A DNA stretch of 34,721 nucleotides, taken from a bacterium (GTDB lineage Bacteria > Patescibacteriota > Minisyncoccia > Minisyncoccales > GWA2-46-15). The DNA lies in contig JAUYCZ010000010.1 in the NCBI GenBank assembly GCA_030704795.1, positions 1 through 34,721 of the forward strand, in the 5' to 3' direction. The translations under genes were made by a program, and so were the position numbers. The notes under the pieces are model-generated. The model saw only the letters and a list, made by a program, of their open reading frames with translations. It had not been told where the DNA came from and ran no database searches. Positions 335-17,617 of this stretch are shown piece by piece; within the stretch, counting starts at the first letter, position 1, and each line of letters opens with the position of its first letter.

Positions 335-577
335 ATGGACAAAAAACTTTTAGTTTTAGTCTTAGTCGGAACGGTTTTAGCCGTGGCGGCGGGCGTCGGA
401 GGGTATATTTTTGGCTACCAAAAAGGGTACGGCGCCGGCGTGGAGATCGGTCGAGCGGCGGCGAAAACCGGAGCCAAGGACGTCGTGGCTAATCCCCTGG
501 AAAAGCTGCCCGAGATCAATCCGTTTAAAAAGGTGGTCAACCCGTTTGAGGCGGGCTACGTCAATCCGTTTAAATAG
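335..577 (+). CDS. Small single-pass membrane protein, 80 aa, NPF-rich C-terminus
   Basis: N-terminal hydrophobic helix with Gly-rich segment; C-terminal repeats INPFKK/VNPFEA/VNPFK. Confidence 0.6.
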   Translation: MDKKLLVLVLVGTVLAVAAGVGGYIFGYQKGYGAGVEIGRAAAKTGAKDVVANPLEKLPEINPFKKVVNPFEAGYVNPFK

Positions 578-588
578 CCAAAACAGAT

Positions 589-2190
589 ATGAAAAAACTC
601 CTTTTTACCTTCGAGCATAGCGAGAAGGCTAAGATTCCTCTTACCTTCGAGCGTAGCGAGAAGGCTAAGATTCCTCTTATTCTTACTGGAGTCGTTCTGT
701 TTTTTGTCGCTGGCTTTTTTGTTTTCGCGCAAGAGGCGGATCCGCTTTCCCAAATTACCTATCCGGTGGCCGAGTTGGGCGATTGTCAGAGCCGAGAGGC
801 TTGCGAGAGTTATTGCGACCAGCCCGAAAACATGGCGCCCTGCCTGGATTTCGCCGAGTCCCATAACTTGATTTCTCCGGAAGAACTGTCCCTGGCTCGA
901 AAAATGCTGCTGGTCGGCGAAACGGCCGGACCGGGCAATTGCCGCGGCCAGGCGCAATGCCAAGCCTATTGCGATGACATCAATAACATTGAAGAATGCT
1001 TGGCTTTTGGCGAGGAGCACGGTTTGATTCCAGCCGATGAATTGGCCGAAGCCCAGAAGGTGGCCGCCGCCATCAAGCGGGGGGTCAAGCCGCCGAATTG
1101 CCGGAGCAAAAAGGAATGCGGTGTTTATTGCGGCCAGTCGGAAAACATGGAAGAATGCCTGGTTTTTGGCGAAGCGGCCGGCTTGATTCCGCCGGAAGAA
1201 CTGGGCGAGGCGAGAAAAGTTTTAGCCGCCGTGAAAAAGGGCGCCAAGCTCCCGGGCTGCCGGGGCAAGGCCGACTGCGACGTTTATTGCTCCCAAGACG
1301 AACATTTTCAAGAATGTTTGGACTTCGCCGAGGCCGCTGGCTTTATGTCTCCAGAAGAAGCGATCATGGTCAGGAAAACCGGCGGCAAGGGGCCGGGCGG
1401 CTGCCGGGGCAAAGAAGTCTGCGAGGCTTTTTGTGAAGATCCGGCCAACGCCGAAGCCTGCGTTGATTTCGCCGTCCAGTACGGTTTTATGGAAGCCCAA
1501 GAGGCCGAACAGGCCAAGAAAATGATGAAGCTGGGTATCCGGGGCGGACCAGGAGGTTGCAAAGGGAGAGAAGAATGCGAAGCTTTTTGTGATGAATTAA
1601 GCCACTTGGTTGAATGCGTTGACTTTGCCGAAAAAGCCGGTTTTATGAATTCAGAAGAAGCGGTGAGGGCCAGAAGAATGGCCGAACTGGGAATTGTCGG
1701 CGGACCGGGCGGCTGCAAGGGCAAGGAAGAATGCGAAGCGTTTTGTCAGAATCCGGAAAACGGTCAGGCGTGCGTTGATTTTGCCGTCAAGGCCGGCGAC
1801 ATCAGTCCAGAAGAAGCCGAAAGGGCCAGGCAGGGAATGGAAATGATGCAACGGCAGAGATCGTCAGGGCCCGAGGGTTTTCCGGAAATACCGGGTCAAA
1901 TTCCCGGACAATTTCCGGAAGGAATGACGCCGCCAGAAGGAATGAGGCAACCGCCAACGCCAGAAGAGATGGAAAAGATGGAACAAGAAGGCCAGAAAAG
2001 GGCCAGGGAGCAGGTAGAACAAATGATTCCCGGCGCCGGCCCGGTGTCGCCACCGGAAGGAGGACAATCGCCGCTAATGCCCGAAGGAGTGCCGCCGGTC
2101 CAAATTTCGCCCGTGGAGAACCCGCCCCAATCGTTTCTCGAAAGGGCGCAGAACTTTTTGGCCGACACCTTGTTTTTACTCCGTAAATAA
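589..2190 (+). CDS. Secreted or surface cysteine-repeat protein with Pro/Glu-rich C-terminal tail
   Basis: Signal-like N-terminus; seven repeats with C-x5-C-x3-C-x8-C; Pro-rich tail and hydrophobic C-terminal segment. Confidence 0.8.
   Translation: MKKLLFTFEHSEKAKIPLTFERSEKAKIPLILTGVVLFFVAGFFVFAQEADPLSQITYPVAELGDCQSREACESYCDQPENMAPCLDFAESHNLISPEELSLARKMLLVGETAGPGNCRGQAQCQAYCDDINNIEECLAFGEEHGLIPADELAEAQKVAAAIKRGVKPPNCRSKKECGVYCGQSENMEECLVFGEAAGLIPPEELGEARKVLAAVKKGAKLPGCRGKADCDVYCSQDEHFQECLDFAEAAGFMSPEEAIMVRKTGGKGPGGCRGKEVCEAFCEDPANAEACVDFAVQYGFMEAQEAEQAKKMMKLGIRGGPGGCKGREECEAFCDELSHLVECVDFAEKAGFMNSEEAVRARRMAELGIVGGPGGCKGKEECEAFCQNPENGQACVDFAVKAGDISPEEAERARQGMEMMQRQRSSGPEGFPEIPGQIPGQFPEGMTPPEGMRQPPTPEEMEKMEQEGQKRAREQVEQMIPGAGPVSPPEGGQSPLMPEGVPPVQISPVENPPQSFLERAQNFLADTLFLLRK
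607..678 (+). repeat. 36-bp in-frame tandem duplication
   Basis: 607-642 and 643-678 differ at one base (617 a versus 653 g); encodes TFEHSEKAKIPL / TFERSEKAKIPL. Confidence 0.9.
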
Positions 2191-2203: not shown

Positions 2204-3010
2204 ATGACCAAGAGAATAATTGTTTTAACAATATTAATCATATCTATACTTGGTGGTCTTGGGTTTATTCTCTACAGCCAATTCTTTTTAGAGAAAGCCC
2301 CGGCGCCCGGGCTGGGAAGAATCGATGAGATAAAAAAGAGAGGCGAGATTATCATCGGCACCGATGCCACCTATCCGCCCATGGAAAGCCTGGACGAACA
2401 GGGAAACTTCTTCGGCATGGATATAGACATTGCCAGGGAGATTGCCTCAGATCTTGGCGTTAAAGCAAAATTCAAGAATATTATTTGGGAAGAAATTTTT
2501 GATGCGGCCAAGAACGGGGAAGCCGATATGATCATATCGGCCATCACCATCACCAGGGAAAGGACGGAGACTCTGGCTTTTTCTGACCCCTATTTTAATG
2601 CCGGTCAGGTCATTGTCGGCGCGATAGATAAGCAGGGAATCATTAGCGGGCCAAAAGACCTCAAGGAATATAGGGTGGGGGTTCAGGTCGGAACCACCAG
2701 CGAAGTCGAGGCGCGGAAATATGCCGCTAATCCGTCTCTAGTGAACACTTATGAGAATTACGATTTAGCCAAGGAAGACTTACTGAAGGGGAAGATCGAC
2801 GCCATCATTATTGATTATCCGGCCGCGGTGGGAATGATCGCCAAAGAAGAAAGATTACAAATAGCCGGAGAAATCTTTACCCAGGAGTTTTACGGAATTG
2901 CCATTCAAAAAGATCAGCCAGGATTGCTTTCGCAGATTAATAAAACCATCCGGCGGCTCAAGCAGGAAGGGGGACTCCGGAGAATAGAAGAAGGGTGGTT
3001 AGGCCAATGA
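2204..3010 (+). CDS. Family 3 extracellular solute-binding protein (amino-acid type)
   Basis: GEIIIGTDATYPPMESLDEQGNFFGMDIDIAREIA and ERTETLAFSDPYF motifs; N-terminal hydrophobic segment. Confidence 0.85.
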   Translation: MTKRIIVLTILIISILGGLGFILYSQFFLEKAPAPGLGRIDEIKKRGEIIIGTDATYPPMESLDEQGNFFGMDIDIAREIASDLGVKAKFKNIIWEEIFDAAKNGEADMIISAITITRERTETLAFSDPYFNAGQVIVGAIDKQGIISGPKDLKEYRVGVQVGTTSEVEARKYAANPSLVNTYENYDLAKEDLLKGKIDAIIIDYPAAVGMIAKEERLQIAGEIFTQEFYGIAIQKDQPGLLSQINKTIRRLKQEGGLRRIEEGWLGQ

Positions 3011-3936
3011 TGAAATTTAAACCTAATCTTCAATTCGAGTTGCTCATTGTCGTTGCTTTGGTCATTATTTTGACCCTTTCAGTTTTTTATTATTTGAGCG
3101 TCGATAACCAAAATAAGATTTTTCGTGATTCTTTTCGCGGTTCGGCCATCAGTTTGGCCCATGCGCTTGACGCCGGCATTGGCAGCAAGAACGAATTAAA
3201 CGACGTGGCCAAACTGCAATCCAATATTTACAAGATGATATGGCTCAGCTCTAATATTGTTGGCATCAGTATTAGTTTGCCCGTTGAAAACGGTTTAAAA
3301 ATTATCGCCTCTAACGACGCTAGCCTGATTGGAGAAATGGCCATTCCAGAAAGTCTGGCCGTCTATCAAGACGGGACGATTTCCACTAAGGTTGTGACCG
3401 AAGCCGATGGCGCCAAGGTGCTCAGAGTCATTACTCCGGTTTATATTGGCGGCCGAAGAGTCGGCATTTACAATATAAAGCTATCCTTAGACCCCTTAGA
3501 AAAAGTTATCGCCGAAACGAAAAGAGAGTTTTTATTGATTACCTTGATGTCCATCCTGGCCATCATCGGCATCCTTTCTTTTTCAATAAAAATTACCGTC
3601 ATCGATCCGATCAAACAATTGCTGAGCGGAATGGATAAAATTGGCAGCGGCGGATTAGACTATCGGGTTAAGACCAAGAGACAAGATGAAATCGGCGATT
3701 TGTTTTCCAGTCTCAATGTCATGGCGGAAAAATTAAAAGACAGGACCGAAGCCTTGAAGAGAGAAAGAGAGGGGCTGGCCGAAAAAGTCGCGCAAAAAAC
3801 GAAAGAGCTTCAAGAAAAAGTTGATGACTTGGAGAAATTTAACAAACTGACAATCGGCCGAGAAATAAAAATGGTCGAGCTGAAAAAAGAAATCGATAAA
3901 TTGAAGCAAACATCGAAAAGTGACGAATCAAAATAA
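3007..3936 (+). CDS. Membrane sensor with extracytoplasmic domain, HAMP and C-terminal coiled coil; no kinase domain
   Basis: Two TM segments, HAMP-like DPIKQLLSGMDKIGSGGLDYRVKTKRQDEIGDL, coiled-coil tail; ATGA overlap with upstream stop. Confidence 0.8.
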   Translation: MMKFKPNLQFELLIVVALVIILTLSVFYYLSVDNQNKIFRDSFRGSAISLAHALDAGIGSKNELNDVAKLQSNIYKMIWLSSNIVGISISLPVENGLKIIASNDASLIGEMAIPESLAVYQDGTISTKVVTEADGAKVLRVITPVYIGGRRVGIYNIKLSLDPLEKVIAETKREFLLITLMSILAIIGILSFSIKITVIDPIKQLLSGMDKIGSGGLDYRVKTKRQDEIGDLFSSLNVMAEKLKDRTEALKREREGLAEKVAQKTKELQEKVDDLEKFNKLTIGREIKMVELKKEIDKLKQTSKSDESK

Positions 3937-4000
3937 TAAATAGGATAAAAAAATAAACAAGTTTAGCCTTTTTGCTAAACAAAAAGGTAATCTTAAAACC

Positions 4001-5188
4001 ATGATAAAAACAGCCGTCGGTATCAGCGACAATAAAGATTCTTTTGAGGCCGGATCTTCTGCTTGTCAGCAAGCGATGGATAAAGTTGGCGGCCGGGCTA
4101 AATTAATTATCGTTTTTTCTTCGGTCAGTCACGATCAGGAAAAGATGATTAGCGGCGTCCGGTCTGTTTCCAAGGAGATTCCCCTTGTCGGTTGCAGCGA
4201 TTCGGGTGAAATCACCACCAACGGCCCAACCTCGGGACAGGTGGCGGTCATGGCCCTTAACGCCGATAATATAGATTTTGTCATCGGCATTGGCCTGGGA
4301 ACGGATAAGGATTCTTATGCGGCCGGGATGGCTGCGGCTAAAGAAGTAAAAGAAAAATCTACTAAAGAATTATCCTTGCTCATGACATTTTTGGACGGTT
4401 TGGCCGAAAACGGAGCCGCCGTTGTCAGGGGCCTTCAGGAAGTTTTAGGAAAAAACTTACCGATTGTGGGCGGCTCGGCCGGAGACGATTTTCTCTTCAA
4501 AAAGACTTTCCAATATTATAACGATCGAATTATGACGAATGCCGTGATTAGCATTGGTTTTTCCGGTGAATTTTCCTTTGGCGTCGGGGTGCGGCACGGC
4601 TGGGAGCCAATCGGTTTGCCCATGAAGGTTACCGAAGCCAAGGGTTCGAGAATAATCAAAGTGAATGGTCGCCCGGCTCTTTCGATTTATGAAGATTACT
4701 TTGGGAAAAAAGCGGAAGAATTGATTAGGGAACCGATTGCCAAAATGGCCTATACTTATCCTCTCGGCATGAGCGTTGAGGGATCGGAAGAGCTTTTGAT
4801 TCGGGACGTAGTCATTGCCAATGAACAAGGCGAAATCACTTGCGCCGCCGAAATCCCCGAAGGCTCTGATATCCGATTAATGTTAGGGGACGCCGACAAA
4901 GCAATCCGGGCCGCCCGGGAAGCGGCTGAAGGGGCTTTGGATCAACTCAAAGGGAAAAAGCCGGTTGCGATTTTTATTTTTGATTGCATGGCTCGTTGCA
5001 AATTATTAGGCCAGGGCATCAGGACTCAAGAAGAGATTGTGGCTATTCAAGAGGTTTTGGGCAAGGACGTTCCGCTGATCGGCTTTTATACTTACGGAGA
5101 ATTGGCGCCTCTGGCCGGAGAAATTGGTCCAAAGTGCCATTCGGTTTTCCATAACGAAACCATGACTTTAATGGTCTTGGGAGAGTAG
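4001..5188 (+). CDS. FIST-domain sensory protein (FIST N and C)
   Basis: [58 protein letters not shown] motifs. Confidence 0.85.
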
Positions 5189-5192
5189 CGGA

Positions 5193-5648
5193 ATGGACTT
5201 AATTAAGTTAATTAGAGAAAAAATTAGGGGAGTTAAAAGACCTGAATTACCGACGGCGGTGTTTGATATTAATAATGATCAGGCAGATAAAGAAAAGATC
5301 ATTATTGAATTGGATCGCATCGCCAAAATGTTGATTAAGCGGGATTTTTCCTTAATGGAAATTAAGGAAAAACGCGAAGCAGAATTAGTCGAATTAAAGA
5401 AAACCAAGCAAGCGCTGGAAGAAGCTAAAGCAGTCTTAGAGATTAGAGTGGAAGAGAGGACCAAGCAATTACAGGATTTAACCAAGAGTCTCGAAGAAAA
5501 AATTGAAGAAAGAACAAAAGAACTGCAAGAAAAAGTAGCGGACCTGGAAAGATTTAATAAACTAGTTGTCGACCGGGAATTAAAAATGATTGAGCTAAAG
5601 AAAGAGTTGGAGGAATGCCGCGGTAAGCTTTCCAAGCCGCGCCAATAG
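5193..5648 (+). CDS. Coiled-coil protein with tail homologous to the HAMP protein tail
   Basis: Heptad-rich sequence; [25 protein letters not shown]. Confidence 0.7.
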
Positions 5649-5675
5649 CTAAGCCCAATCTTTATCCGCGGAATC

Positions 5676-5696
5676 GCGCTTAAAGCGCATTTTTTT
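5676..5696 (+). terminator. Rho-independent-like terminator
   Basis: GCGCT-TAA-AGCGC followed by T7. Confidence 0.55.
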
Positions 5697-5712
5697 ATCA
5701 TTAATTCAATCT

Positions 5713-7512
5713 ATGGAAATCAGGAACATTGCCATTATTGCCCATGTTGACCATGGGAAAACCAGCCTCACCGACGCCTTGTTGCGCCAGACCGGAATGA
5801 TTGAAGGCGGCGTCAGTATGGATTCTAACGATCTGGAAAAGGAGCGCGGCATTACTATTTATTCAAAAAATGCCTCTATTTTCTATCAGGGCACAAAAAT
5901 AAATCTGGTGGACACGCCCGGCCACGCCGACTTCAGCTCAGAAGTAGAACGCGTTTTAAGGTCGATTGATTCGGTGCTTTTGGTGGTGGACGCCCAGGAC
6001 GGTCCCATGCCCCAAACAAAGTTTGTCCTTAAAAAATCCCTGGAACTCGGATTGAAACCAATCGTCGTTGTCAATAAAATAGATAAGCCAACCGCTCGGC
6101 CAGAATGGGCGCGTGACGAAGTCCTCAATCTTTTCATTGATCTCGGCGCCAATGACGAACAGTTAGATTTTGTCACGGTTTATGCCATCGCCAAAAACGG
6201 AATTTCTAAACTTCATTTAGAAGATGAGTCGAGCGATCTGACGACGCTGTTGGAGACGATCTTAAAAGAAGTTCCGGCCGCTTCTTCTGACGAATTGAAC
6301 CTCAAGCCGTTCCGGTTTCAGCCATTTAATCTCGGCTACGATGATTTTATGGGCCGTCTGGCCATCGGCCGAATCTACGAGGGAGTGATAAAATCAGGCC
6401 GTAATGTTTTTGTCAAAAAACCGGGGAGAGAAGAAGCCGTTCCCGGAAAAGTCACAAAATTATTTACTTTCCGCGGCCTTGAGCGGCAAGAGGTCGAAGA
6501 GGCCGTCGCCGGAGAAATTGTGATGCTGGCCGGTTTGCCCGATATTTATATCGGGGAAACTATTTGCGCCGATCCGTCGCAATCAGCTTTGCCCGCCATC
6601 AACATTGACGAACCGACGATCTCTCTTAATTTTTTAGCCAACAATTCTCCTTTGGCCGGCCAGGAAGGGAAACTCGTCACCAGCCGCCAGATCAGAGAAC
6701 GCCTGGAAAAGGAGATTGAAGTCAACGTGGGGCTGAAAATAGATTTTTCTGCCAGCGAATATTTCAAAGTTTACGGTCGAGGGGAGCTCCACATCGCTAT
6801 TCTGCTGGAAAATATGAGGCGGGAGGGATACGAGTTGCAAGTTTCTCAGCCGCAAGTCATTTTTAAAGAAAAAGACGGCATCAAACTAGAACCCTTTGAG
6901 GAAATCACGATTGACGTTCCGGTCGGAATGACAGGTACGGTTATAGAAAAACTTTCAAAAAGAAAGGGCCGGCTGGTTAATATAAAGCAGGAACAGGGGT
7001 TCTCGAGAATTGTCTTTGAAATACCGACGAGATGTTTTCTGGGCTATCGGGGCGAATTTATCATTGATACGCGCGGGGAAGGGATAATGTGCGGCCAGGT
7101 TATCGGTTTTCGTCCTTACGTCGGAGAAATAGAGCACCGCGTGGTCGGATCGATGGTTTCCATGGCCAGCGGGAAAGCGCTCGGTTATTCGCTTTGGAAT
7201 CTCCAGGAGCGCGGCACTCTTTACATCGGCGCCGGAACCAACGTTTACGAAGGGATGGTGGTCGGCAACGTTTCCAAGGGAAATGATCTGGCCGTCAATC
7301 CGACGAAAGGAAAACACCTCTCGAATATGCGGTCAAAAAGTTCCGACGAGGCGATCGTGCTCGTTCCTCCCATCGAGATTACCCTGGAAAGGGGATTGGA
7401 AATAATGAATGAAGATGAATATCTTGAGGTGACGCCCCGAAGCATCAGATTAAGGAAAAAGTTTCTGACGGAGTTAGACCGGGTCCGCGCAAAAAGACAG
7501 TTGACAAATTAA
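5713..7512 (+). CDS. typA: GTP-binding protein TypA/BipA
   Basis: MEIRNIAIIAHVDHGKTSLTDALLRQTG, DTPGHADF, NKIDKP; EF-G-like C-terminus. Confidence 0.97.
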   Translation: MEIRNIAIIAHVDHGKTSLTDALLRQTGMIEGGVSMDSNDLEKERGITIYSKNASIFYQGTKINLVDTPGHADFSSEVERVLRSIDSVLLVVDAQDGPMPQTKFVLKKSLELGLKPIVVVNKIDKPTARPEWARDEVLNLFIDLGANDEQLDFVTVYAIAKNGISKLHLEDESSDLTTLLETILKEVPAASSDELNLKPFRFQPFNLGYDDFMGRLAIGRIYEGVIKSGRNVFVKKPGREEAVPGKVTKLFTFRGLERQEVEEAVAGEIVMLAGLPDIYIGETICADPSQSALPAINIDEPTISLNFLANNSPLAGQEGKLVTSRQIRERLEKEIEVNVGLKIDFSASEYFKVYGRGELHIAILLENMRREGYELQVSQPQVIFKEKDGIKLEPFEEITIDVPVGMTGTVIEKLSKRKGRLVNIKQEQGFSRIVFEIPTRCFLGYRGEFIIDTRGEGIMCGQVIGFRPYVGEIEHRVVGSMVSMASGKALGYSLWNLQERGTLYIGAGTNVYEGMVVGNVSKGNDLAVNPTKGKHLSNMRSKSSDEAIVLVPPIEITLERGLEIMNEDEYLEVTPRSIRLRKKFLTELDRVRAKRQLTN

Positions 7513-7983: not shown

Positions 7984-9438
7984 ATGGCTCAAAGAGGAGA
8001 GGTGATAGTCAGGTTCGACAAAGCGTCCTTTGCCTATGGACACAACAAACCAATCTTAGATGAGGTGGATTTTTCCGTTCGGCAGGGGTCGAAAATAACA
8101 TTGATGGGACAAAACGGCGCGGGCAAGAGCACAATCTTGAACCTCATTACGGGAACGATTGAGCCAGACTCAGGACGCGTCCATTGCGCCGCCAGAATTA
8201 CCGTGGCGGCGGCGAGACAGACCATTTCCCAAGATCAATTTTATTTAACCGTCCGCGAGTTTTTCGAGAGGTGTTTTGCCCAAAAAATATATGACATTGA
8301 TCCTCGGATCGATGAGGCGCTTTCAATCGTGAATCTGGTCGCCCCGCACGACCGGATCATCAAATCATTTTCCGGCGGCCAGCAAGCTCGGCTTCTCTTG
8401 GCCTCGGCCCTGATTCAGAATCCCGACCTGCTCCTTCTTGACGAACCGACCAATAATCTTGATCAAGACGGCATCAGCCACCTGACACAATTTCTGATTG
8501 ATTACAGAAAGACGTGCATTGTCATTTCTCACGACGCTGATTTTCTCAATGCTTTTACCGAAGGCGTTTTATATTTAGACGTCTTCACCCGTAAGGTTGA
8601 GTGGTATGTGGGCAACTATTTTGATCTGGCCGCCGAGCTTCTGGCTCGAATTGAAAAAGAAAATAGAAAAAATTCGCAGCTGGAAAGGAAAATTCAGGAA
8701 AAAAAGGATAAAGCGAACTATTTTGCCCACAAGGGCGGGCAACTGCGTTTTGTCGCAAAACAAATGCGGCAGAGAGCTCAAGCAATGGAGGAGGCAAAAG
8801 TTGACGTCCGCAGGGAAGATAAAACCATCCGGGCGTTTATCATCCCCTCGCAACCGGATATCGGCGGGGAAATTCTGAGCATTACTTCTTTTTCTGTGAT
8901 GAAAACAGGCAAGCTGGTGACGCGCCGGGCCGATATTTCTTTGAGGAAGAATCGGCACTTGCTTCTCCTGGGCCCAAATGGCATTGGCAAGAGCACCCTG
9001 CTTGAATCTCTGGCCCAAGGAAAGGCCAAGGGTTCTAAGGTTGCCCCGAACGTCCGGATCGGGTATTATCGTCAAGATTTTTCTACTCTCAGTCTCGAAG
9101 ACACCGTCTACGATTCGCTTAGTTTTGTCGCCGGAGAGCAGACTGAAGAAAGCATTCGTTCCCTGGCGGCGGGATTCTTAATAACCGGCGATTTGATGTA
9201 TGCTAAAATAGGCAGCTTATCTGAGGGCCAAAAGGGCCTGGTCTCTTTTGCCAGGATCTGCCTGCAAAAACCCGGACTGCTCATTTTAGACGAACCGACT
9301 AATCATATTAATTTTCGGCATTTGCCCATTATCGCCGCGGCGCTCAATAAATATGACGGGGCGATGATTCTCGTCAGCCACGTTCCCGGATTTGTTCAAC
9401 AGATTCGTATTGACGAGACCCTCGATTTAGAAAAATGA
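7984..9438 (+). CDS. ABC-F family ATPase (two ABC domains)
   Basis: GQNGAGKST, SGGQQARLLLA, LLLDEPTNNLD; second GPNGIGKST, SEGQKGLVSFA, LILDEPTNH; ATG preferred over the GTG at 7912. Confidence 0.9.
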   Translation: MAQRGEVIVRFDKASFAYGHNKPILDEVDFSVRQGSKITLMGQNGAGKSTILNLITGTIEPDSGRVHCAARITVAAARQTISQDQFYLTVREFFERCFAQKIYDIDPRIDEALSIVNLVAPHDRIIKSFSGGQQARLLLASALIQNPDLLLLDEPTNNLDQDGISHLTQFLIDYRKTCIVISHDADFLNAFTEGVLYLDVFTRKVEWYVGNYFDLAAELLARIEKENRKNSQLERKIQEKKDKANYFAHKGGQLRFVAKQMRQRAQAMEEAKVDVRREDKTIRAFIIPSQPDIGGEILSITSFSVMKTGKLVTRRADISLRKNRHLLLLGPNGIGKSTLLESLAQGKAKGSKVAPNVRIGYYRQDFSTLSLEDTVYDSLSFVAGEQTEESIRSLAAGFLITGDLMYAKIGSLSEGQKGLVSFARICLQKPGLLILDEPTNHINFRHLPIIAAALNKYDGAMILVSHVPGFVQQIRIDETLDLEK

Positions 9439-11288: not shown

Positions 11289-12599
11289 ATGACTCAAGAA
11301 GAAGCATTAGAAATCCTGAAAGGCGGGCAGAACATCTACCTGACGGGACGCCCCGGCAGCGGTAAGACATATCTGCTCAATCAGTTCATTCAGTTTTTGC
11401 GGCAAGAAAATATTCCCACCGGCGTGACCGCCGCCACCGGCATCGCCGCCACCCATCTGAACGGCATGACGCTTCATTCATGGTGCGGCATGGGTTTTCT
11501 CAACGAGCTGGAGGACAAAGACCTTAAAAGAATACTTAAAAAGAGAAACCTGCAAAAACGCCTTCAAAAGAGCCGGGTGCTGATTATCGACGAGGCTTCG
11601 ATGCTTTCGGCCAAGCACCTTGATATTGCCGGCGAAATTGTCCGTAAATTTCGGCAGAGCTGGGAGCCTTTTGGCGGCCTGCAGGTGGTCCTTTGCGGCG
11701 ATTTTTTCCAGTTACCGCCGGTGGGAAATAAAAGCGACCCAAAGACCCGTCTTTTTGCCTATCACGCCCGCGTTTGGCAAGAGTTAAACCTTAAGATTTG
11801 TTATCTGACGGAACAATACCGGCAGACCGACAAAGAGTATCTGACCACCCTGGAAGCCATCCGCACCAACAGCGTCGATGAAAGCATCCGCGGCTTATTA
11901 CAGAAACGAATCGGCGCCTTCCTTCAAATAGGCCCCTCGAAGTCTTTTAAGGTAAGGCCCGAATGCACCAAACTTTACACTCACAATGCCGACGTTGACG
12001 CCGTCAACGCGCAGGAACTGCAAAAACTCCCGGGCAAAGAACGGATATTCCATATGAACAGCCGCGGGTCGGCGGCTTTGGTCGAGGCGCTTCAGCGGAA
12101 CTGCCTGGCGCCGGAGGAATTGATCTTAAAGAAGAGCGCTTTTGTCATGTTCGTCCGCAATAACCCGGAGCAAGGTTTTATCAACGGAACGCTGGGGGTC
12201 GTCCAGGGATTTGAGAAAGACGGTTCTCCCGTCGTCGAAACAAAAGACGGCCAGCGCATTAAGGTATTTTCCGAAAAATGGCGGATCGAAGAGGACGAAG
12301 AGGTGAAAGCCGAAATCCGCCAGTTGCCTTTGCGCTTGGCTTGGGCCATCACCGTCCATAAAAGCCAAGGGATGACGATTGATGCCTGCGAAATCGATCT
12401 TCGCAAATCATTTGAACCGGGCATGGGTTATGTCGCCCTTTCCCGGGCGCCCTCATTCGCAAGTATCCGGCTCATCGGCTTGAACGATCTCGCCTTACGC
12501 GTCAATGAAGAAGTCGTGGAAATGGATAAATTCTTCCAGGCCGCTTCCCGCCAGCTGGCGATGAAAAGGGATATTGACATCAAATCCGGCACGATTTAA
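11289..12599 (+). CDS. PIF1/RecD-like ATP-dependent DNA helicase
   Basis: NIYLTGRPGSGKTYLLNQFI, VTAATGIAATHLNGMTLHSW, VLIIDEASML, AWAITVHKSQGMT, YVALSRA. Confidence 0.92.
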   Translation: MTQEEALEILKGGQNIYLTGRPGSGKTYLLNQFIQFLRQENIPTGVTAATGIAATHLNGMTLHSWCGMGFLNELEDKDLKRILKKRNLQKRLQKSRVLIIDEASMLSAKHLDIAGEIVRKFRQSWEPFGGLQVVLCGDFFQLPPVGNKSDPKTRLFAYHARVWQELNLKICYLTEQYRQTDKEYLTTLEAIRTNSVDESIRGLLQKRIGAFLQIGPSKSFKVRPECTKLYTHNADVDAVNAQELQKLPGKERIFHMNSRGSAALVEALQRNCLAPEELILKKSAFVMFVRNNPEQGFINGTLGVVQGFEKDGSPVVETKDGQRIKVFSEKWRIEEDEEVKAEIRQLPLRLAWAITVHKSQGMTIDACEIDLRKSFEPGMGYVALSRAPSFASIRLIGLNDLALRVNEEVVEMDKFFQAASRQLAMKRDIDIKSGTI

Positions 12600-12602
12600 A
12601 CT

Positions 12603-12627
12603 AAAGGTGACATCACGTGTAACCTTT
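12603..12627 (+). promoter_or_regulatory. Putative operator upstream of the abiE-like operon
   Basis: AAAGGTGAC-N7-GTAACCTTT inverted repeat with one mismatch, 12 bp before the ATG. Confidence 0.4.
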
Positions 12628-12639
12628 GGGTGTATCTCT

Positions 12640-13227
12640 ATGGAAAAAGCTGATATTTTGAGCATTTTAAGGTCAAACAACACCGTTTTCTCTTTTAAAG
12701 AGATACTTTTGTCGTCAGGCGAAACCAATCCTGCCTTATTGAGAAGACGGATTAGTTATTACATTAAAAAAGGAGAGTTATATCCGGTTAGGAGGGGCAT
12801 GTATGCCAAGGATAAGAATTATGAAAAACTGGAGTTAGCGACAAAGATATTCACTCCTTCGTATATCAGCTTTGAGACCGTTTTAGGTAGAGCGGGAGTA
12901 ACTTTCCAGTTCTACGGCCAGATTTTTGCCGCTTCTTATCTGACCAGAGAAATAATTGCCGACGGTCAGACTTACGCCTATAAAAAGATTAAGGACAAGA
13001 TTTTGACCAATCCGGATGGAATCGAAAAAAGAGATAACTACTCCATCGCTTTGCCGGAACGCGCTTTTTTGGATGTCATTTATCTCTGCAAAGATTACCA
13101 TTTTGATAATCTCTCTCCTTTGAATTGGGACAAAGTTTATGAAATCCTGCCGATTTATGGCGGCAACAAGAGAATGGAGAAAAAAGTCAAACAATATCAC
13201 CAATTAGCTAAGGACAAAATCAATTAA
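12640..13227 (+). CDS. AbiEi-family type IV antitoxin (winged-helix transcriptional regulator)
   Basis: N-terminal HTH, GELYPVRRGMYAKD, FTPSYISFETVLGRAGV, ALPERAFLDVIYL; directly upstream of the AbiEii-like gene. Confidence 0.85.
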   Translation: MEKADILSILRSNNTVFSFKEILLSSGETNPALLRRRISYYIKKGELYPVRRGMYAKDKNYEKLELATKIFTPSYISFETVLGRAGVTFQFYGQIFAASYLTREIIADGQTYAYKKIKDKILTNPDGIEKRDNYSIALPERAFLDVIYLCKDYHFDNLSPLNWDKVYEILPIYGGNKRMEKKVKQYHQLAKDKIN

Positions 13228-13231
13228 ACCC

Positions 13232-13963
13232 ATGTCTCTCGATATCACCACGCACAAAAATATTTTGATCAAGATACTCAAAGACATTTATACCGATCAC
13301 GCGCTCGGGCCGTTTCTGGGCTTTAAGGGCGGTACGGCCGCCTATTTATTCTATGGGCTCGATCGTTTTTCCGTTGATTTGGATTTTGACCTGCTTGTCC
13401 CGACGGGATTGGAGGGGCTCGATGTTAAGAAAGAGGATTATGTTTTTGAACAGATCAAGAAGATCTTGGAAAAATATGGCGCGGTGAAAGAAGCAGACAG
13501 AAAAGGGTTTAATCTTTCCTATTTGCTTTCGTACGACAATAAACCCGAAGGCGGCCAGAACGTTAGGGTTGAGGTAAACCGCCGGGGATTCGGCTCAAAG
13601 TATGGAGTGGAATCGTATCTCGGCATCTCCATGAAGATTATGGTGCGGGAGGATATGTTTGCTCATAAGCTTTGCGCGATGTATGAACGAATCACCAAAA
13701 CCAACCGTGATATTTATGACGTTTGGTACTTTCTGGAAAAAAACTGGCCGGTTAATAAAGAAATCGTTGAAACGCGGACCGGCCTGCCGTTCAAGGACTT
13801 TTTACAGAAGTGCATCGATCTTTTGGAAAAAATGGAGGAGAGAAGCATTCTTGCCGGCATGGGCGAGGTCTTGAGCGAAAAACAAAAAGACTGGGCCCGG
13901 GCCAAACTCCGGACCGAAGCCATCTTCCAGCTGAAATTAAAGCAAAAGATCTATTTGTCCTGA
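13232..13963 (+). CDS. AbiEii-family nucleotidyltransferase toxin
   Basis: GFKGGTAAYLFYGLDRFSVDLDFDLL nucleotidyltransferase motif; REDMFAHKLCAMYER, RDIYDVWYFL. Confidence 0.88.
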   Translation: MSLDITTHKNILIKILKDIYTDHALGPFLGFKGGTAAYLFYGLDRFSVDLDFDLLVPTGLEGLDVKKEDYVFEQIKKILEKYGAVKEADRKGFNLSYLLSYDNKPEGGQNVRVEVNRRGFGSKYGVESYLGISMKIMVREDMFAHKLCAMYERITKTNRDIYDVWYFLEKNWPVNKEIVETRTGLPFKDFLQKCIDLLEKMEERSILAGMGEVLSEKQKDWARAKLRTEAIFQLKLKQKIYLS

Positions 13964-15059: not shown

Positions 15060-16916
15060 ATGATCCTTTACGAAGGGACGATTGAGAAATTTAACGAGGA
15101 TGTAATGCAAAATTGTATTGCGGATCGCGCAGCTGATGGGTACCGGGCTTATTATAAAAGGAATCCAGTTGATCGTGAATACAGGTCATGGGCAATTTCC
15201 CTTGCGATCTTAAATAATAGTTTTCATTACGCTGGCCTTAAAGACAACCATATAATTGTCGAATACGAGCTTCCTTATTCGTCTAGAAGAATTGACGTTT
15301 TGCTTTTTGGTTATGATATTGACGGAGAAGAAAATATTATAATGCTGGAATTAAAACAGTGGTCAAATCAACACGTGCAAGACGCTGAAGCCGAGGGTAA
15401 TGTGCTCGTAGATTATGGACAATTTAAGAAAGAGCAACCACATCCTGCACTACAAGTGCAAGGATATTATTTTGGGCTTAGGGATTTTCTCGAGATTTTT
15501 CAAGAAAAGAATCCGCCAGAATTAAGTGGGTCCGTATATTTGCATAATTATTCAAAGAATAAAGATGCTCTGCTTTTTGCTTCGAAATTTTCCCAGATAA
15601 CCAAAACCTTTCCATTATTTGCAAAAGAAGATGCTATTGAATTAGGAAAGTATTTAAAAAAACGACTTCAAGGTGGTAAAGGGCAAATGATTTATGAACG
15701 ATTTGCAAGAAGCCCGATTGAACCATCTAAGAGATTGCTTGATCATACGTCGGAGATGATAAATAAACGGCAAATCTTTAATTTAATTGATGAACAAATT
15801 GCCGCCTATAATGCGATAATGCACAAAGCTAAGCAATTAGCGAAAATAAAGCAAAAATCAGTAGTTATAATAAGTGGTGGTCCAGGCACAGGAAAGTCTG
15901 TGATAGCGTTAGAAATTATGGGGGAACTTTTAAGACAAGGGAAAAAAGTCGTACACGCTACAGGCTCGTCTGCATTTACAAATACATTAAGAAGTATAGT
16001 CGGTGTTAGAGCAAGAAACCTATTTAAATTCTTTAATAGCTTTATTACGATAGAGCCAGATTCTTTTGATGTGCTTATTTGTGACGAAGCACATCGTATA
16101 AGGGAGTCAAGTATGAGTAGATATACCCCAAGAGCTCAGAGAACAGATCTTCCCCAAATAGATGAATTATTACGGGTAGCAAAGTTAAATATTTTCTTTA
16201 TAGATGAACATCAAATCGTACGACCAAGCGAGGTTGGTGGTATCGCAATGCTTAAGGAGGCTGCCAAGCGCTTCGGTATTAATGATGAAAATATAGTTGG
16301 ATTTGAATTAAAAACACAATTTCGTTGTTCTGGGTCGGATGCTTATTTGCAGTGGCTAGATCATGTTTTAGAAATTCGCGATACAGAAATTACAGAATTT
16401 GATGCAAAAATGGAGTTTCGTATTTTCGACAATCCATCAGATATGATGTCTGAGATTAGGAAGCGAAACGAAGAAAAGCCAAACTTAGCTCGTATAGCGG
16501 CTGGATTTTGCTGGCCTTGGAGCAAGCCTAATCTAGATGGTTCGTTGGCAAATGATGTGAAAATAGGAAGTTTTGAAATGCCATGGGAAAGGAAGGATCA
16601 ATTTTGGAAATGGGCTACAGACAATTCCGGCATGGAACAGGTCGGTACTGTATATACAGCGCAGGGAATGGAGTTTGACTACATCGCTGTTATTTTTGGT
16701 AATGATCTTGTATATGACTTTGAGAAGAATACATGGAAGGCTGTTCCCGGTAATTCTTATGATAGTCAGATTAAGCGCAATAATCCGATCTTAGTTAATC
16801 ATTTGAAAAATGTATATCGTGTTTTGATGTCTCGGGCGCATAAAGGGGTATATGTTTATTTTATGGATAAAAGTACGGAAAAATATTTTAGGAGTCATTT
16901 ACCAGAAATAAAATAA
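15060..16916 (+). CDS. DUF2075-type (Schlafen-like) helicase/ATPase with N-terminal PD-(D/E)XK-like region
   Basis: SGGPGTGKSVIALEIM Walker A, VLICDEAHRIRESS, VYTAQGMEFDYIAVIFG, YRVLMSRAHKGVYVYF; N-terminal RIDVLLFG...IIMLELKQW. Confidence 0.85.
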   Translation: MILYEGTIEKFNEDVMQNCIADRAADGYRAYYKRNPVDREYRSWAISLAILNNSFHYAGLKDNHIIVEYELPYSSRRIDVLLFGYDIDGEENIIMLELKQWSNQHVQDAEAEGNVLVDYGQFKKEQPHPALQVQGYYFGLRDFLEIFQEKNPPELSGSVYLHNYSKNKDALLFASKFSQITKTFPLFAKEDAIELGKYLKKRLQGGKGQMIYERFARSPIEPSKRLLDHTSEMINKRQIFNLIDEQIAAYNAIMHKAKQLAKIKQKSVVIISGGPGTGKSVIALEIMGELLRQGKKVVHATGSSAFTNTLRSIVGVRARNLFKFFNSFITIEPDSFDVLICDEAHRIRESSMSRYTPRAQRTDLPQIDELLRVAKLNIFFIDEHQIVRPSEVGGIAMLKEAAKRFGINDENIVGFELKTQFRCSGSDAYLQWLDHVLEIRDTEITEFDAKMEFRIFDNPSDMMSEIRKRNEEKPNLARIAAGFCWPWSKPNLDGSLANDVKIGSFEMPWERKDQFWKWATDNSGMEQVGTVYTAQGMEFDYIAVIFGNDLVYDFEKNTWKAVPGNSYDSQIKRNNPILVNHLKNVYRVLMSRAHKGVYVYFMDKSTEKYFRSHLPEIK

Positions 16917-17617
16917 TGATTAAAATACGCGACGACATCTTAAGCTATCGCGAAATGTGCGATGCAGAGAATGTTCAGACATTACAACGAGGCATGAATT
17001 TTCGATTGAATCCTAGTTATTCTGTAATTTTAATGTCACGGCGCCCTAACGCTCCATATCAGGATAGAGTTCATGACGATGGGATTACAATTGAATACGA
17101 GGGACACGATGTTTCCCGGAGATCATATGAACATAATCAAAAACACGAAGACCAGCCAGCTAGATTGCCGACTGGTCGTTTAACTCAGAATGGATTATTT
17201 ATCAAAGCGGTAGATAAGTATAAGGAAAATAAGAGCAGACCCGAATTGGTAAAAGTTTATGAAAAAGTTTTCCCCGGCGTTTGGTCCCTTAAAGGCATTT
17301 TTAACTTAACTGACTATAAAATAGTCGATAACGGTAATAGAAAAGTTTTTAGATTTATTCTCAGGCTATCCAATAAGCAATTAGAAGAAAGAGATGTGGG
17401 GGAGGAGCCTCTCCCACATAACCGACTAATTCCATCAGAAGTAAAAAAGGAAGTCTGGAAGCGTGACGGCGGTAAATGTGTACAATGCGGCGCAGCTAAG
17501 AATTTACATTTTGATCACGACTTACCGTTTTCAAAAGGTGGCACGAGCATATCTGCGAAAAATGTACGTTTGTTATGCATGAAGCACAATCTTGAAAAAT
17601 CGGCGAAGATTGAATAA
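16916..17617 (+). CDS. HNH endonuclease with SRA/YDG-like N-terminal domain
   Basis: MSRRPNAPYQDRVHDDGITIEYEGHDV (SRA-like); KCVQCGAAKNLHFDHDLPFSKGGTSISAKNVRLLCMKHN (HNH). Confidence 0.82.
   Translation: MIKIRDDILSYREMCDAENVQTLQRGMNFRLNPSYSVILMSRRPNAPYQDRVHDDGITIEYEGHDVSRRSYEHNQKHEDQPARLPTGRLTQNGLFIKAVDKYKENKSRPELVKVYEKVFPGVWSLKGIFNLTDYKIVDNGNRKVFRFILRLSNKQLEERDVGEEPLPHNRLIPSEVKKEVWKRDGGKCVQCGAAKNLHFDHDLPFSKGGTSISAKNVRLLCMKHNLEKSAKIE

Follow-up and report, generated by a model that had tools for sequence, protein, structure and literature searches.

Genes and features of the locus

Two adjacent genes on the + strand lie near the start of the window, that is, the whole 34,721-nucleotide stretch of DNA analysed here (Table 1). 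The upstream gene (335..577) encodes a small protein and ends 11 bases before the gene of a cysteine-repeat protein, which is single copy in the source genome. The first-pass annotation had reported seven tandem C-x5-C-x3-C-x8-C units in a protein with a signal-like N-terminus and a Pro/Glu-rich C-terminal tail. At the base level the spacing was exact in all seven motifs (starting at 784, 940, 1099, 1258, 1402, 1558 and 1714), the units measured 48-53 amino acids (52, 53, 53, 48, 52, 52 and about 52, in order from 1 to 7), and none of the 28 cysteines fell outside them, as had been claimed. The hydrophobic segment followed by VFA-Q was likewise present, and the tail was as described. The span given for the array, 772-1815, fitted closely, but the array reaches about 1860 when the third helix of the last unit is counted. 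What has to be revised is the reading of the gene as that of a lone protein: together with the gene at 335..577 it makes up a conserved two-gene unit. Neither this partner gene nor the short hydrophobic C-terminal helix at 2134..2184 had been mentioned.

Table 1. Features of the two-gene unit, in window coordinates.
Feature	Position	Strand	Evidence
Partner gene, product of 80 aa: transmembrane helix at N-terminus, NPL/NPF motifs in tail (ANPLEKLPEINPFKKVVNPFEAGYVNPFK), end NPFK	335..577	+	ORF; conserved upstream
Cysteine-repeat protein gene	589..2190	+	ORF, 533 aa, 28 Cys; family alignments
Signal-peptide-like N-terminus, hydrophobic segment then VFA-Q, residues 1-47	589..729	+	sequence
In-frame tandem copies TTCGAGC(A/G)TAGCGAGAAGG (protein TFE[H/R]SEKAKIPL), within signal segment	610..664	+	genome motif search
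Conserved N-terminal cap I-x-[YF]-P-[VI]-x-E-L-G ahead of first Cys	754..783	+	family alignments
Unit 1 (helices 69-76, 79-91, 97-110)	775..930	+	motif and model
Unit 2	931..1089	+	motif and model
Unit 3	1090..1248	+	motif and model
Unit 4 (48 aa)	1249..1392	+	motif and model
Unit 5	1393..1548	+	motif and model
Unit 6	1549..1704	+	motif and model
Unit 7	1705..1860	+	motif and model
Pro/Glu-rich tail, model mostly low confidence, one helix (residues 458-479)	1861..2127	+	sequence and model
C-terminal hydrophobic/amphipathic helix, residues 516-532, within SFLERAQNFLADTLFLLRK	2134..2184	+	model

More than one C-x5-C-x3-C-x8-C motif was found in none of 20,000 residue shuffles of the protein, which rules out a chance origin of the repeats. 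Recent tandem amplification was also ruled out, because the units have 12-24 of 40 residues in common and stand in a conserved order across species. A small duplication of another kind is seen within the signal segment, where the DNA motif TTCGAGCRTAGCGAGAAGG occurs at 610-628 and again at 646-664, with no third copy in the genome; the encoded insert, TFE[H/R]SEKAKIPL, is missing from the homologues of the cysteine-repeat protein. In the N-terminal cap, P59 and L63 are invariant or nearly so in the family alignments.

Downstream of the pair, at 2204-5648, is a run of sensory-type genes, encoding a family 3 solute-binding protein, a HAMP membrane protein with weak Cache matches, a FIST-domain protein and a coiled-coil protein, with no kinase among them. 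The solute-binding, HAMP and FIST genes were not conserved beside the pair at the family loci and were, for this reason, rejected as parts of the device proposed below. Farther on, an AbiEi-like gene (a weak match, below the Pfam cut-off) and an AbiEii nucleotidyltransferase gene (12574-13963) probably form a type IV toxin-antitoxin pair. The region 15060-17617 encodes a Schlafen-group-3-type helicase protein and then a protein of 233 amino acids with an HNH-like C-terminus, for which no Pfam match was found.

Structure model and database searches

The first-pass annotation recognized no named domain in the protein and stated that a confident match to a described domain would refute its reading. 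No such match was found in Pfam, NCBIfam, PHROGs or PDB sequences and folds, and the family as a whole had no credible match in Pfam, NCBIfam or PDB. A structure prediction, which had been suggested as a check, gave a confident all-helical array: in the AlphaFold2 model, residues 60-420 were almost entirely helical with a pLDDT of about 90-97. Each modelled unit has three helices: C2 and C3 sit on a short first helix, C4 sits on the second, and the PEE..AR segment makes up the third; C1 directly precedes the first helix. A second family member was modelled with the same three-helix pattern. In Foldseek comparisons of both models with solved structures, nothing was detected at E <= 0.001; the insignificant top matches were mostly alpha-solenoids, with best probabilities of 0.08-0.30. 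A description of the family was not found in the literature searched. The cysteine-repeat unit is thus undescribed in the libraries and literature that were covered.

Several known systems resemble the pair in part. Sel1-like proteins and the Helicobacter cysteine-rich (Hcp) proteins are exported or surface proteins built of short helical repeats with disulfides, and the large proteins of the present family are likewise built of short helical repeats, with probable export and probable disulfides. Its unit differs, with four cysteines, about 52 amino acids and three helices, where a Sel1 unit has two helices, and the family has an obligate partner with an NPF tail. No match to Sel1 or another repeat-family profile was found for 66 members in Pfam at E 0.01. 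The alpha-solenoids in PDB (PPR, TPR, HEAT) are similar to the model in general architecture but lack the invariant four-cysteine pattern. The C-x3-C spacing gave weak summed scores to the AtDEF-like plant defensins (PF25052) in 12 of the 66 members, with partial cover of the profile and, where shown, no single stretch that passed. We rejected this identity as a coincidence of cysteine spacing, since defensins have a cystine-stabilised alpha-beta fold whereas the model is all-helical with high confidence.

A parallel for the partner is provided by the eukaryotic EH domain, made of paired EF-hands, which pairs with NPF peptides. A tail of repeated NPF motifs beside a helical partner suggests a similar peptide-binding mode. 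In contrast to the EH system, our pair is predicted to be extracytoplasmic and no binding was seen in a co-fold (below); EH or EF-hand similarity was not found in the repeat protein by Pfam searches or PDB fold comparison. By overall class, the large protein would be an exported helical-repeat surface protein, a known type, and we can only hypothesize how it acts together with its partner.

Spread and conservation of the family

We defined the family by two features. One is a tandem array of C-x5-C-x3-C-x8-C units, each followed by an F-[AG]...G-[LF]-[MI]...E-E helix; the other is an immediately preceding gene, on the same strand, for a protein with a single transmembrane segment and a tail that ends in NPF. 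The window has both, the array with its following helices and the upstream partner at an 11-base distance.

Homologues were present in 13 of 60 relatives and in 15 of 381 genomes sampled across the phylum, 3 of the latter being weak (E 1e-8 to 6e-6). A scan of 85,462 species, with one genome each, gave 79 homologue loci. The named bacterial hosts belong nearly all to Parcubacteria lineages, for example, Nealson-, Wildermuth-, Kaiser-, Jorgensen-, Giovannoni-, Uhr- and Liptonbacteria. Outside Patescibacteria (CPR) and DPANN archaea, the scan found the family only on a single 1.9-kb contig binned as Saganbacteria. No relatives were found in the viral contigs of IMG/VR, and on this ground a viral origin was ruled out.

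The cysteines are the most constant part of the unit. All four were kept in 589 of 589 complete unit hits across the family, and the 5-3-8 spacing was exact in 521 of 604 units. A Tyr or Phe precedes C3 in 98% of the units, an Asn or His lies five residues past C3 in 95%, and a Phe lies three residues past C4 in 93%. The order of the units is conserved as well. In comparisons between species, the first unit best matched a first unit in 3150 of 4830 cases (about 17% expected by chance), and in the six-unit proteins the diagonal dominated unit-versus-unit matching. This conserved order argues for an old repeat array whose units have separate identities.

All 78 complete members have a hydrophobic N-terminal segment, with AxA in 32 of them. 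Many family members, among them archaeal ones, have a hydrophobic C-terminal end similar to that of the window's protein: the median hydropathy of the last 20 amino acids was +0.31, versus -0.92 for the 40 before them. Other ends also occur. In many members (for example, L004, L008 and L012, and not the window's) the array is followed by a conserved helical module with two cysteines (CL...G...I..G...P...G...CF). Several (L106 at 3797-6571 on the + strand, L035, L082, L109 and L110) share another cysteine-containing C-terminal end, VPSC.Y...C..C, which at L106 accompanies a LamG/ConA-like domain.

The small NPF-tail partner

Clustering of neighbouring ORFs revealed one recurrent companion, the small NPF-tail protein, at 60 loci. 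Its family members, of roughly 63-120 residues, begin with a Lys-rich stretch and have a single transmembrane helix; their tail repeats NP motifs and ends in NPF and usually one more residue. When all loci were considered whose contig reaches far enough upstream, each of them, about 93 distinct loci (99 detected by script plus 4 with a split ORF, minus about ten that had been fetched twice), had an NPF-tail ORF immediately before the cysteine gene. The gap between the two genes was mostly 0-30 bases, with a median of about 10.

All the cases of apparent absence could be explained. At L056, L104, L112 and L115 the small gene stands ahead of the first half of a split repeat ORF; L124, L131 and L132 are situated at the ends of contigs; and at the archaeal loci L125 and L127 the small gene is present with extra residues after NPF. 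The locus L122 has, besides the upstream copy, another small protein with an NPF tail, encoded downstream of the repeat gene (8444-8683, + strand).

A profile of the small protein matched in 58 of the 60 relatives overall. Matches that reach the tail (E <= 1.9e-10) were found in exactly the 13 genomes with the cysteine protein, adjoining its gene. The matches in the other genomes were dismissed as generic, none being better than E 5e-7 and their cover being mainly of the membrane segment. The two genes thus occur in the same 13 of 60 genomes (Fisher p 2e-13, uncorrected for kinship, the 13 genomes falling in 12 genera). Within this sample the gene pair is obligate.

In the alignment, the NPF end was the only part of the small protein that is invariant from bacteria to archaea. 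Given this invariance and the constant company of the two genes, we hypothesize a physical contact in which, most likely, the tail binds the repeat protein. The number of NPF motifs showed no relation to the number of units (rho 0.006), and the number of NP motifs was weakly related to it (rho 0.24, p 0.016). When the NPF tail and the repeats of L061 were modelled as one chain, from two in-frame genes with the stop codon read as Ser purely as a modelling device, the tail had a pLDDT of 37-47 and did not dock. We consider this model mildly negative at most for tail-repeat binding. The Lys-rich N-terminus suggests that the small protein has its N-terminus inside and its tail outside.

Archaeal members and horizontal transfer

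Besides Patescibacteria, the pair was present in four DPANN archaea. In L125 (Pacearchaeota) and L127 (an uncultured archaeon) the neighbouring genes look archaeal in their sequences when judged by eye; those of L125 include RuBisCO-like and ribosomal-protein-like genes. Their small genes end in KLNPF plus a few residues. A search through 238 genomes belonging to the same archaeal phylum as L125 added two further pairs, in G627 (L143) and G629 (L144). In a tree of 81 members, rooted at the midpoint and built on a repeat alignment that is a poor basis for deep branching, the archaeal copies lay inside bacterial (CPR) diversity in two places, and two changes were needed even with the strongly supported branches alone. 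The two changes point to transfer between bacteria and archaea at least twice.

Another archaeal protein, at L145 (1159-2739, - strand), is of secreted type and has two units after a region that appears leucine-rich-repeat-like from its sequence. Both units are degenerate, and an NPF partner was not found near it in the fetched stretch.

Export and the state of the cysteines

The hydrophobic segment at the N-terminus of all 78 members checked makes export of the large protein likely; a point against it is that a clear AxA cleavage site was seen in only 32 of them. The source genome encodes a VKOR with a CxxC (CTWC) and a DsbA-like protein with a CPFC. In CPR, an MdbA-like oxidoreductase has been reported to adjoin VKOR (Meheust et al. 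2019, PMC6744442). Predicted export, the retention of four cysteines in every complete unit, and the presence of VKOR and a DsbA-like protein lead us to favour two disulfides per unit. A link between VKOR and the pair was significant within the order (6 of 13 pair-bearing genomes versus 4 of 47 others, p 0.004) but was lost across the phylum (7 of 12 versus 155 of 369, p 0.37), so the distribution of VKOR lends weak support to the disulfides. The pairing could not be read from units that lose cysteines, since no complete unit has lost any. Our guess is that C1 pairs with C3 and C2 with C4, given that a single helix carries C2 and C3 at a distance of four residues.

A possible cell-surface device and its alternatives

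We propose, at roughly even chances, that the two genes encode one cell-surface device, probably for cell contact, with a helical-repeat protein probably stapled by disulfides and an NPF-tail membrane partner. The large protein would leave the cytoplasm through Sec and then fold into a chain of three-helix units, in each of which the VKOR/DsbA-like pathway probably forms two disulfides. It would be a stiff helical rod that continues into a flexible Pro/Glu-rich tail and finishes with a hydrophobic C-terminal helix. The small protein would span the membrane, N-terminus inside and NPF-repeat tail outside, and would most likely bind the large one through NPF-type peptides as an anchor, an assembly partner or a chaperone; we infer export, topology and disulfides alike. 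What computation establishes is the two reading frames, the repeats, the helical model of high confidence, the obligate pairing and the occurrence in CPR and DPANN. For bacteria and archaea that live on other microbes, the likeliest use would be to contact neighbouring cells or attach to them.

This role in adhesion is a guess that we draw from the predicted export, a fusion to a lectin-like domain, and the reported life of Paceibacteria on methanogens. The fusions to LamG/ConA-like (L106) and leucine-rich-repeat-like (L145) regions suggest that the units sit in surface-type proteins; the window's own protein has no adhesin domain, which speaks against the role. Paceibacteria, including Nealsonbacteria, have been reported attached to methanogens (PMC10936435). 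The pair is missing from 47 of the 60 relatives, however, and is therefore no general requirement of this lifestyle.

Other readings were weighed against this device. The four cysteines of each unit might instead bind a metal ion or cluster, in an extracellular store or an electron-transfer wire anchored by the NPF protein. The invariance of the four cysteines as a set is what a Cys4 site would also give; no other ligand is conserved, however, with Asn or His at position 16 and Tyr or Phe at position 10, no metal-binding family was matched, and both predicted export and the VKOR and DsbA-like proteins of the genome favour oxidised cysteines. We regard metal binding as rather improbable. Similarly low is our estimate for a secreted antagonist, in which the large protein would act on a host or competitor, perhaps by inserting its C-terminal helix, with the small protein protecting the producer or serving export. 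A tight two-gene operon with a small membrane protein first, the hydrophobic C-terminal helix, the patchy distribution and the transfer between bacteria and archaea would all suit such an antagonist. There was, however, no match to a toxin, peptidase or pore-forming family, the unit order is conserved with no variable C-terminal effector domain, and the NPF end stays invariant from bacteria to archaea, unlike immunity proteins, which are usually variable.

A structural component of the envelope with no binding role, in which the array would be a stiff spacer of the cell coat assembled with the help of the NPF protein, is unlikely in our view. It would agree with the regular, apparently ancient and order-conserved array, with the helical-repeat model and with the Pro/Glu/Gln-rich tail. 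It is less easily reconciled with the single copy in the source genome, with the member fused to a lectin-like domain, and with the lack of the pair in 47 of the 60 close relatives.

For the surface device itself, a more specific form can be offered tentatively, as a possibility we rather doubt: a so far undescribed two-protein system specific to the ultra-small CPR bacteria and passed at least twice to DPANN archaea, in which a membrane-held NPF tail would capture a disulfide-stapled four-cysteine rod of a new repeat fold and display it to make contact with a host cell.

The strongest new fact is an obligate two-gene unit common to CPR bacteria and DPANN archaea, apparently by transfer, with a large protein that is confidently folded in the model yet unlike solved structures. 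For the question of how CPR and DPANN organisms attach to and recognize their hosts, the pair provides a concrete target. With a profile of the family, databases could put a name to a widespread protein group that now has none.
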